DNA of 64,000 nt from Symbiodinium sp. CCMP2592 (Eukaryota > Sar > Dinophyceae > Suessiales > Symbiodiniaceae): positions 174,568 to 238,567 of the forward strand of contig CAJNDT010000129.1 of NCBI GenBank assembly GCA_905221615.1. Direction: 5' to 3'. Made by a program: the position numbers and the translations under genes. Below, in pieces: positions 3,167 through 53,006 of this stretch. The notes under the pieces are model-generated. The model ran no database searches. It was not told the origin of the DNA and saw nothing but the letters and a program-made list of their open reading frames with translations. Positions within the stretch are counted from its first letter, which is position 1. Every line of letters begins with the position of its first letter.

Positions 3167-4138
3167 CTTGGGTGGCCTTAGAAAGGCTCTTTGGGTCTGT
3201 CGGCCATATTACTGGGTTCCTGGATCAGGAGTTCCTGGATCAGGACGAAGGAATGGCAACAGAATAACGTGAGTTAAACGCCCCCATCAATTCAGAAAAC
3301 AGAAAATGAAAGTGTCTTTCTTTCGGTTGCATGGACAGAAAAGCATTGGTTTGGATCCGATGAAACCTATTTTTAGGAGTTTCCTTTGTCATTCCGAACA
3401 AACAGTTTATTGTTCTGGTCTGAAAACTCATACCATCCAGTCACACCACGACAAAGAAACACGAGCACACCAGAGGTATGTACATGTGTGTGTGTGTATG
3501 TATATGTACATGTATGTATGCATGTAGTCTGTAGGTATGTAGGTATGTATGTATGTATGTATGTATGTATGTGTACGTATGTGGGGATGTATGTAGGCAA
3601 CCCACAGGGCACAGGCGGCAAATGGCAGTGGCGGCCCATCGTCGGTTCGGTCGTGTGCAAGAAGGCACACAAGTCCTGCTCCGCCCTAAACCCTAAATCA
3701 AATGCCCAGAACAGCCTAAACCCTCAACCTTATGACATCCAAACCTGAACCCCTAAACCGTATGACCCATGAAGCTTAAACCCTAAATCTAAACTTAGTC
3801 CTACAACCCTATGCCCAGAGGTAGCTGAACCCTAAGCTTAACCCTAAACCTTAAGCTAAACCCTAAACCCTGAAGCCCGCCCGCTAAGCTGAATCCCAGG
3901 CCCCAAGCCTTATCCTGAACCCAAATACAGGCCTAAAGCCCAAGCCATGCCGAAAACCCGGAACACCCTAAACCCTAAACCCTAAAACCCACACCCTAAA
4001 CCCTAAAACCCTAAAAAGCCTTAAACCGCGTCGTAAACCCTGTAAAACCCGGCCCAAAACCCTTTTAAAACCCTAGAGACCCCGCCCGAAACCCGCCCAG
4101 CCCGCCCAAGTAATCTTTTAGGCCGAAACATTACTTGG
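3167..4138 (+). repeat. Left terminal inverted repeat (972 bp)
   Basis: Inverted partner of 52033-53006. In order from the tip: CTTGGGTGGCC; two tandem copies of the dyad TTCCTGGATCAGGA at 3217-3230 and 3232-3245; a (GT)6 and (TATG)7 microsatellite near 3484-3575; degenerate CCCTAAA heptamers at about 3680-4080; and at the inner edge a palindrome CCAAGTAAT...ATTACTTGG (about 4106-4138). Reading frames across the microsatellite are not genes. Confidence 0.95.
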
Positions 4139-4275
4139 CAGGTTTTTGGTGGCTACGGCTAGGGTTTTAGGCTTGGGGCTTTGTTTGGGGTGTAGGGGGT
4201 TAGTTTTAGGTTTGGGGTTTGGTCTGGGATAGGGGTTATGGGCGACATTTTATGTAGGTTTGGGGTCTAGGTTTA

Positions 4276-5133
4276 GGCGGCTGTCCCTGCGCCGCAGGTC
4301 TATAGGGGTTAGGCGGCTGTCCTTGCGCCGCTAGGAATCTTAGGTTTGGGGTTTGATTTGGGATAGGGGTTATGGGCGACTTTTTATGTAGGTTTGGGGT
4401 CTAGGTTTAGGCGGCTGTCCCTGCGCCGCAGGTTTAAAATTTAGGGTCTAGGAGTCTATAGGGGTTAGGCGGCTGTCCTTGCGCTGCTAGAATTTTAGGT
4501 TTGGGGTTTGGTCTGGGATAGGGGTTAGGGCGACTTTTCATACAGGTTTGGGGTGTTTGAGTCTAGGGTTTAGGCGGCTGTTCTTGCGCCGCGGGTTTAG
4601 GTTTAGGGCAACCGTTTAGGTTTGGGCAAAGGGGTTAGGCGGCTGTCCTTGCGCCGCTAGGAGTTTTTTAGGTTTGGGTTTTGGTCTGGTGTCTAGGGGT
4701 TAGGGTGATTTAGGTCGGGGGTCGAGGAGTGTAGGGGTTAGGCGGCTGTCTCTGCGCCGCTAGGAGGGGGCTGTTAGGGTTGGGAGGTACTTGGATTTCA
4801 CGGCGGTTTGTTCAGGAGGTTTTGGAGTCCTTTCTAAGTTTAGGGTCTAGGGTATTTTATTTGGCTGAACATGCCTGACCCTGCCCAATCGTAAAATCCT
4901 GTCCTAAGCCCAAAGCTAAGAACTCCTAGCAGCCCTCTACAGACGCACTAGCCCCTAGATTGTAATGCGCCAAAGGAGCTAGATTCTCTACAGCAAACTT
5001 CCGAACCTTCAATAAATCCAACAGCCAAAATCCCAAAACCAAAGCCCCACAAAATCCAAAACCCTAAACCTCTTAGCGCCTAGTATTCCCTAGATCCCAA
5101 ACCTAAAACTCCTAGCGGCGCAGAGACAGCCGC
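4276..5133. repeat. Left subterminal GC-hairpin array in TTTAGGG-like sequence
   Basis: GGCGGCTGTCCTTGCGCCGC or close variants occur at 4276, 4312, 4410, 4468 (arm variant GCGCTGC), 4573, 4638 and 4741, all in one orientation, with an inverted copy at about 5115-5133. GCGGC pairs with GCCGC around a 9-base loop. The spacer is degenerate TTTAGGG-like DNA. A related array in the opposite orientation lies just inside the right TIR. No gene seen in 4139-5600. Confidence 0.8.
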
Positions 5134-5599
5134 GCTAACCACAACCCCTACAAGGCCCCAAACTTAAGCCAATTATCCAAGGCTAGCTGTTAGGGGCTCG
5201 AAGGAATAGTTTCTAAGGGTTGGCCTGAATTTGGAATCAGGGTCGAGGGTTCAGGAGTTCAGGTTGAGGGTCGAGGCGGAGCCAAATCATGTAGTGCCTA
5301 GGCTGCCCATAAGCTTTCCCCAAAAACCCATAAAAAGAATCCGTCTCAAGCTTGAAACCCTAGCTCTGAAGCGCAACCAAAACTCAAAACCCGAACTCCT
5401 CGCGGCACAGAAAATTAGCTGCCCCACCAAACTCTAAAGTCCTAGCCCGTAGAATCCTAAACCACACCCCCAAAGCCAACTCCTCGCGGCACACCCCTAA
5501 ACCCCAAACCTGTACCCTAAGCTTAACGGACCAAAATCCTCCCAAATCCATTGGAGAAGCTCTTCCAAAACCATTTACAACCGTATAGTAGGCCGCCTC

Positions 5600-50800: not shown

Positions 50801-51023
50801 TCCCCTCGCTCACTAACTTCGAAACTGGTCCAAGCACAAGCTGACATCTGTTAGAACATGTCCGAATCTCGCCGAGGAGCGTCGGAGTCCCTATAAGGGA
50901 AAAGATCGGCGCTTGGTTCGGCAGAGTTTGCGAAACCTTAGGTCCAAAACCCCTGAGGCCTGTAAATCTCTTTCACCCGATATCCCGATTGCACTTTTGC
51001 ACTTGTTGGGACTTTGGCTTCAG

Positions 51024-51690
51024 TACCTATGGCCCAGCGGCGCTGGCTCTGCCGCTCTGCCCTGAATATTGAAACTATAAACTCTAAAACCTGAAGCCCT
51101 TTGATTCCTTATCGCCCTACTGGAGATTTCAGACCTAGCCTAAGCCTTTCCTGTTGCGTAGCGGCGCAGGATCTGCCGCCTTAGCTGTAAATATTGAAAC
51201 TATAAACTCTAGAACCTGAAGCCCCTTGTAATTCAATGCCGCTCTACTGGAAATTTCAGACCTAGCCTAAGCCTTTCAAGCGGCGCAGGATCTGCCGCCT
51301 TAGCCGTGAATATTGAAACTATAAACTCTCGAACCTGAAGCCCCTTGTAATTCAATATCGCTCTACTGGAGATTTCAGACCTAGCCTAGGCCTTTCAAGC
51401 GGCGCAGGATCTGCCGCCTTAGCTGTAAATATTGAAACTATAAACTCTCGAACCTGAAGCCCCTTGTAATTCAATGTCGCTCTACTGGAAATTTCAGACC
51501 TAGCCTAAGCCTTTCAAGCGGCGCAGGATCTGCCGCCTTAGCCGTAAATATAGAAACTATTAACTCTAGAACCTGAAGCCTCTTTTAATTCAATGCCGCC
51601 CAAACCACATGTAGTCTAAGCCCTTCCTGTTTCGTAGTGGCACAGGATCTGCCGCCTTAGCCGTAAATATTGAAAGCAAGCTCTAGAACC
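51024..51690. repeat. Right subterminal array: 119-bp tandem repeat with GC hairpin
   Basis: GGATCTGCCGCC recurs at 51169, 51288, 51407, 51526 and 51645, exactly 119 bp apart. Each GCGGCGCAGGATCTGCCGC block has GCGGC and GCCGC arms and is the reverse-orientation relative of the GGCGGCTGTCCTTGCGCCGC units beside the left TIR. The rest of the unit contains AAACTATAAACTCTAGAACC. Confidence 0.92.
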
Positions 51691-52032
51691 CGAAACTAGA
51701 CTGGAAAAGCCGCAACAACGCTTAAACTCCGCCCTGCAGCCAGCGCCCTGCCACCACTAAGACGAGCTAGAACCTCAAGCCCTAGCCCAAATCAAAGCCA
51801 TGAGCCCTGCACATATCCATATCCGACGAGATTCTTGACATTGAAGCCAGCCCAGTAAGCCAGCCCTCAACGATCACCACCCGTATGTCAAGTCTGGGAC
51901 GCATCCGGCAGATTATCGGAAACGCGGCCGTTCATCAATGCTGTGAGCTTGTAACACAGTTCCTTGGACCAACAGCCGCCCAAGTAATGAAATATTAAGT
52001 GCCTCCGGCACGAAGACAGCGCCGAAACTCGC

Positions 52033-53006
52033 CCAAGTAATGTTTCGGCCTAAAAGATTACTTGGGCGGGCTGGGCGGGTTTCGGGCGGGGTCTCTAGGG
52101 TTTTAAAAGGGTTTTGGGCCGGGTTTTACAGGGTTTACGACGCGGTTTAAGGCTTTTTAGGGTTTTAGGGTTTAGGGTGTGGGTTTTAGGGTTTAGGGTT
52201 TAGGGTGTTCCGGGTTTTCGGCATGGCTTGGGCTTTAGGCCTGTATTTGGGTTCAGGATAAGGCTTGGGGCCTGGGATTCAGCTTAGCGGGCGGGCTTCA
52301 GGGTTTAGGGTTTAGCTTAAGGTTTAGGGTTAAGCTTAGGGTTCAGCTACCTCTGGGCATAGGGTTGTAGGACTAAGTTTAGATTTAGGGTTTAAGCTTC
52401 ATGGGTCATACGGTTTAGGGGTTCAGGTTTGGATGTCATAAGGTTGAGGGTTTAGGCTGTTCTGGGCATTTGATTTAGGGTTTAGGGCGGAGCAGGACTT
52501 GTGTGCCTTCTTGCACACGACCGAACCGACGATGGGCCGCCACTGCCATTTGCCGCCTGTGCCCTGTGGGTTGCCTACATACATCCCCACATACGTACAC
52601 ATACATACATACATACATACATACATACCTACATACCTACAGACTACATGCATACATACATGTACATATACATACACACACACACACATGTACATACCTC
52701 TGGTGTGCTCGTGTTTCTTTGTCGTGGTGTGACTGGATGGTATGAGTTTTCAGACCAGAACAATAAACTGTTTGTTCGGAATGACAAAGGAAACTCCTAA
52801 AAATAGGTTTCATCGGATCCAAACCAATGCTTTTCTGTCCATGCAACCGAAAGAAAGACACTTTCATTTTCTGTTTTCTGAATTGATGGGGGCGTTTAAC
52901 TCACGTTATTCTGTTGCCATTCCTTCGTCCTGATCCAGGAACTCCTGATCCAGGAACCCAGTAATATGGCCGACAGACCCAAAGAGCCTTTCTAAGGCCA
53001 CCCAAG
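52033..53006 (-). repeat. Right terminal inverted repeat (974 bp)
   Basis: Reverse complement of 3167-4138 with one extra dinucleotide in the (AC)7 run near 52673. It contains the same paired TCCTGATCCAGGAA dyads (about 52928-52956) and the same inner palindrome, here extended to GCCCAAGTAAT...ATTACTTGGGC. Homology stops at 52033. Confidence 0.95.

Follow-up and report, generated by a model that had tools for sequence, protein, structure and literature searches.

The 64,000 nucleotides of Symbiodinium sp. CCMP2592 DNA analyzed here (the window, on contig C129) contain an element of about 50 kb that was inserted in one piece with a 4-bp target duplication, and that belongs to a family of related ends that includes a shortened relative. 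We consider it very probable that these copies represent a giant cut-and-paste class II transposon family that is bounded by terminal inverted repeats (TIRs), makes 4-bp duplications and moves as a single unit. Table 1 gives the coordinates of the element, its genes and the interrupted retroelement.

Table 1. Features of the element and of its insertion site (window positions)
Feature	Position	Strand	Remarks
Target duplication CCTT, left copy	3163..3166	none	4 bp
Target duplication CCTT, right copy	53007..53010	none	4 bp
Left TIR	3167..4138	+	972 bp; tip CTTGGGTGGCC; related ends on 3 other contigs
Right TIR	52033..53006	-	974 bp
Left LTR of host retroelement	3034..3166	+	element inserted 3 bp from its end; last bases (GCA) at 53011-53013
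Partner LTR	59571..59706	+	intact; empty-site reference
Tyrosine recombinase (integrase) ORF	11160..12305	-	PF00589, phrog_216, 17 homologs, alignment
Two-ORF gene, hAT-like	13034..15463	+	zinc-finger-like N part 13034-14050; C part 14198-15463
Coding-like segments without known domain	16065..17072	+	codon score
Multi-exon gene	18239..20497	+	2 homologs of 18708-19775
Coding-like segment without known domain	21711..22184	+	codon score
C5-cytosine DNA methyltransferase	22589..23877	+	profiles cover 22960-23877; upstream exon 22589-22900 by eye
Coding-like ORF	26963..27817	+	codon score; weak Pfam matches below cut-off only
Assembly gap within element	34414..34513	none	100 N
Exon-like pieces, CACTA/KDZ-type transposase-like	42456..45600	+	by eye only

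A single insertion into a young retroelement

The two TIRs align with 972 matches and no mismatches, and their sole gap, of 2 bp, falls within a (TG)n run; an inverted repeat this exact and this long is not a product of chance. The element interrupts the LTR of a retroelement, and when the interrupted LTR is rejoined it is 136 bp long and identical to its partner. Put differently, removal of the element and one CCTT leaves a sequence that matches the partner LTR over all 136 bp. Because the flanks without the element equal the partner LTR, the 4-bp duplication can be read directly against an empty site. A single insertion is thereby shown, its target being a young retroelement whose partner LTR serves as internal reference for the empty site. 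They also bear out several points of a preliminary description made by inspection: that the TIRs match throughout except for one microsatellite step, that the insertion lies inside an LTR whose partner is unmutated, that CCTT is duplicated on both sides of the element, and that the insertion is very young, as TIRs without substitution and flanks that rejoin to the partner LTR indicate.

The host retroelement is itself flanked by a 5-bp duplication, AGGGT (3029-3033 and 59707-59711). Its long ORFs lie between 53.9 and 59.5 kb, and from these, by eye rather than by profile, we judge it to be of Copia type. It sits in turn within a tandem array of ~73-bp units (2446-3033 and 59707-59861).

The apparent length of the element deserves separate comment. 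The gap of 100 N is flanked by near-duplicate stretches of about 1.75 kb (32656-34413 and 34514-36257; 98.9% identical without gap columns), so the 49.8 kb given in the preliminary description is an apparent length only. The N run and the near-duplicates on either side of it could be taken to mean that the structure is an artefact of assembly around the gap, an explanation to which we give hardly any credence: the CCTT pair, the unsubstituted TIRs and the flanks from one retroelement make outer junctions that fit one insertion.

Other repeats occur within the element. A CCAAGTAAT/ATTACTTGG dyad that echoes the CTTGGG of the tip marks the inner boundary of the TIRs (4105-4138 and 51979-52065), where a search of subterminal words also located CCAAGTAAT. 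A very AT-rich tandem array occupies 38085-38902 (about 13% GC in 38001-39000), a (TC)n run at 15838-15955 and a (GA)n run at 21069-21174 are mutual reverse complements, and a GCGGGTACCCGC palindrome is repeated at 48023-48427, with short matching pieces on contig C5040 as well (L005:3286-3324).

Related copies in the same genome

One TIR search of the 1.098-Gb assembly, with 40 of 1129 candidates scored, returned at least 77 match rows, and the copy number it yields is a lower bound. Six rows include the tip: two from the element itself, one from C1467, two from C5040 and one from C5177. The remaining 71 start at query position 509 or later, in CCCTAAA-type repeats of the TIR. One of these (C5040, query 808-972) is part of the C5040 element; the others, taken together rather than inspected singly, we read as repeat matches.

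The three contigs differ in how closely they resemble the window. On C1467, examined at its right end only, the TIR differs from that of the window by 12 mismatches and 32 gap columns, and 1.5 kb inside it matches window 50644-52032 at about 95%. This copy lies at another site, as its flank (CAAA) differs from that of the window, and the contig, 54.5 kb long, has room for at most 41.5 kb of element. C5040 carries an internally shorter element of 6.1 kb, read except for 1,241 bp, with both TIRs (95-98% alike, varying with method and length) and TAAA on either side. Its interior resembles window 3974-5572 at 74-85% beside one TIR and window 48887-49570 at 71-75% beside the other, so that its pieces match both ends of the window interior, in inverted orientation. 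A further 138-bp match to window 17933-18070 reaches 95%, far above the similarity of the neighboring matches, and may be a dispersed repeat. C5177 has a single element end, and comparison with the window showed no matching interior. This end is nearer to that of C5040 (96.6% without gap columns); the TIR family thus comprises at least two subfamilies.

A 4-bp repeat flanks both of the two insertions for which both ends are available (CCTT and TAAA), one of them read against an empty site. The TAAA of C5040 lies among CCCTAAA-type repeats, where a chance match by phase is easier (an estimate of about 1 in 7), which weakens that case; the CCTT of the window is independent of it. Single right flanks, CAAA on C1467 and TCAA, were read beside related ends. 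Three features by which class II transposons are recognized are present, in keeping with the transposon-like anatomy given in the preliminary description: TIRs with a 4-bp duplication of fixed length in two insertions, one of them in repeat-rich flanks, and related copies at other sites (C1467, C5040 and C5177). The preliminary description had named two findings that would refute it: TIRs occurring only once, or other copies with differing interiors and no duplications. As far as the search extended, the opposite was found, since ends and interior are common to other copies and one of these has a 4-bp flanking repeat.

Gene content

We listed ORFs of 100 aa or more by script, listing 22.5-27 kb a second time, and searched Pfam at E up to 0.1 with all three plus-strand frames across 11-31 kb and 39-49 kb (the scanned frames) and with single ORFs and homologs. 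Neither Rfam families nor tRNA genes were found in the window. The ORFs of the recombinase, the hAT-like protein, the methyltransferase and the retroelement formed the training set of the codon score, which is thus not independent for those. No DDE transposase was matched by Pfam in the scanned frames or in single ORFs at E up to 0.1.

The tyrosine recombinase matches PF00589 at E 6e-5, below the curated cut-off, and the phrog_216 integrase at 5e-17, with no NCBIfam match at E 0.1 and no match to DUF3435, the Starship captain domain, at E up to 1. One of its 17 homologs is in Effrenium voratum. In a 12-row alignment H236, R239, H262 and Y273 are invariant and R103 is nearly so (one fragment row stops short); we take these five to be the catalytic residues. 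By eye, the protein and some of its homologs have a hydrophobic, signal-peptide-like N-terminus, which is odd for a nuclear enzyme.

The neighboring two-ORF gene shows, by eye, a zinc finger and an SSSxVERGF-type C-terminus, and its C part resembles hAT transposases to the eye. Pfam gave no match supporting hAT for its single or joined ORFs, nor any hAT match in the three of seven homologs scanned. The C part has at least 7 homologs among the 7999 candidates scored, and its predicted fold, mostly helices with a mean pLDDT of 54, was too poor for a fold search. Sequence searches of the PDB with the hAT-like and recombinase queries gave chance-level matches or none. Homologs of both genes fall on records of equal size (980,772 for P0004 and P0009; 52,778 for P0005 and P0010), which suggests that the two genes are linked in other records as well.

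The gene at 22589-23877 encodes a C5-cytosine DNA methyltransferase (PF00145, E 3e-33; TIGR00675, 2.4e-34), closest in the PDB to M.HhaI (2.5e-17); 22568-23011 alone has no Pfam match. For the multi-exon gene, the homologs of 18708-19775 are P0025 (64%) and P0026 (35%), and neither has a Pfam match. The same was found for 21477-22193, and two joined pieces of the 42456-45600 region had no supporting Pfam match.

The recombinase could itself be the mover, acting in Crypton or Starship fashion through a circular intermediate that recombines at a short shared core. Its conserved H, R, H and Y with the nearly invariant R, and its suggested linkage to the hAT-like gene, fit such a role, and a shared 4-bp core would mimic a duplication in a single case; with two cases a mover of this kind would still be conceivable. 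However, a circular-intermediate mechanism works without long TIRs, and the flanking words differ between copies (CCTT and TAAA, with the single right flanks CAAA and TCAA). Because of these differing words, we place the recombinase second as the integrating enzyme and regard its action as mover as quite improbable; staggered insertion fits CCTT and TAAA better than a fixed recombination core does.

Comparison with known systems

Mutator-like elements and Pack-MULEs carry long TIRs and gene cargo, as does the element, and their duplications are usually 7-11 bp; the element differs from them in its 4-bp duplication and in showing no MULE transposase domain in the scanned frames. It is conceivable that host genes were captured between the TIRs of a smaller transposon in Pack-MULE fashion, a scenario that overlaps with a giant TIR transposon in its movement and departs from it in its gene set. 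Long TIRs with cargo recall such elements. The interior beside the TIRs recurs on C1467 (right end) and, diverged, on C5040 (both ends), so that one capture does not account for these stretches at least. Together with the lack of a MULE domain in the scanned frames, this leads us to regard capture as unlikely, even though duplications of 4-10 bp are given for IS256/MuDR in PMC10045372. Pack-MULEs are also treated in PMC6431247.

Several other groups resemble the element in part. Chapaev (CMC) makes 4-bp duplications, as the element does, and EnSpm/CACTA termini begin with CAC. By eye the pieces at 42.4-45.6 kb are CMC/KDZ-like; however, the tip reads CTTGGG rather than CAC, and Pfam offers no support in the scanned frames or for two joined pieces. 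The hAT superfamily, to which the zinc finger and C-terminus are similar by eye, usually makes 8-bp duplications; the element has 4 bp, and the ORFs of its hAT-like gene have no hAT profile match in Pfam. Starships share giant size and cargo genes with it and Cryptons a tyrosine recombinase, and it differs from both in its long TIRs, its differing 4-bp words and the missing DUF3435 match. SymbioDIRS-Dnmt3, as described in PMC5890265, is a dinoflagellate retrotransposon with a reverse transcriptase, A-B-A-B repeats, a tyrosine recombinase and a DNMT. A tyrosine recombinase and a DNMT on a dinoflagellate mobile element are thus common to both; in contrast, the scanned frames of our element contain no reverse transcriptase.

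Polinton duplications are 5-6 bp. Polintons/Mavericks and Teratorn are, like the element, giant and TIR-bounded, and its size and long TIRs could be those of a Polinton or other integrated virus. This origin is highly improbable, as the duplication is 4 bp and Pfam found no capsid, PolB, packaging ATPase or retroviral-type integrase in the scanned frames, where the absence of Polinton hallmarks noted earlier therefore holds. Among viral contigs the TIR tip had 0 exact matches, and the recombinase and hAT-like alignments gave 23 and 29 pattern matches with 0 confirmed relatives. Teratorn TIRs are 18 bp (PMC6431247).

According to PMC10045372, 4-bp duplications occur in piggyBac/IS1380, the PHIS group makes none or 1-4 bp, and some IS481EU make about 4 bp. 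Since several groups share this length, 4 bp alone excludes little. The preliminary description could name no superfamily for the element. This stands in that no tested superfamily fits both termini and protein within the scanned frames; it does not extend to placing the element outside every superfamily. Given the scanned frames, we therefore file it as a family of giant DNA transposons with TIRs and assign it to no superfamily.

Discussion

Our observations are best accommodated by a giant TIR transposon. A DDE-kind transposase, encoded in the element or in a relative, would recognize the CTTGGGTGGCC ends, excise the element and attach its two ends to target DNA at cuts staggered by 4 bp. 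Incomplete gap repair after excision may then generate shortened copies such as that on C5040. The recombinase and the methyltransferase would more likely be accessory than integration enzymes, the former resolving or inverting TIR-paired DNA and the latter marking or shielding the DNA of the element. The genes of the element are at most candidates for the transposase.

More tentatively, the element may belong to an undescribed superfamily of giant dinoflagellate transposons with ~1-kb CTTGGG-tipped TIRs, 4-bp duplications and a gene set conserved across dinoflagellate species as one mobile unit, namely the tyrosine recombinase, its hAT-like partner and a bacterial-type cytosine methyltransferase; we regard this as a serious possibility that falls somewhat short of probable. 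No paper describing such an element appears among the literature matches listed, as judged from titles and abstract openings, which does not establish its absence from print. Giant cargo-carrying transposons are documented elsewhere, as Starships in fungi and Teratorn in fish (for Teratorn, PMC6431247).

A comparison of element copies could pinpoint the transposase. Genome size and gene duplication in dinoflagellates are long-standing puzzles, and a route by which blocks of several genes are transferred would be offered by a young element of ~50 kb such as this one, for which there are related copies, a shortened relative and an empty-site control.
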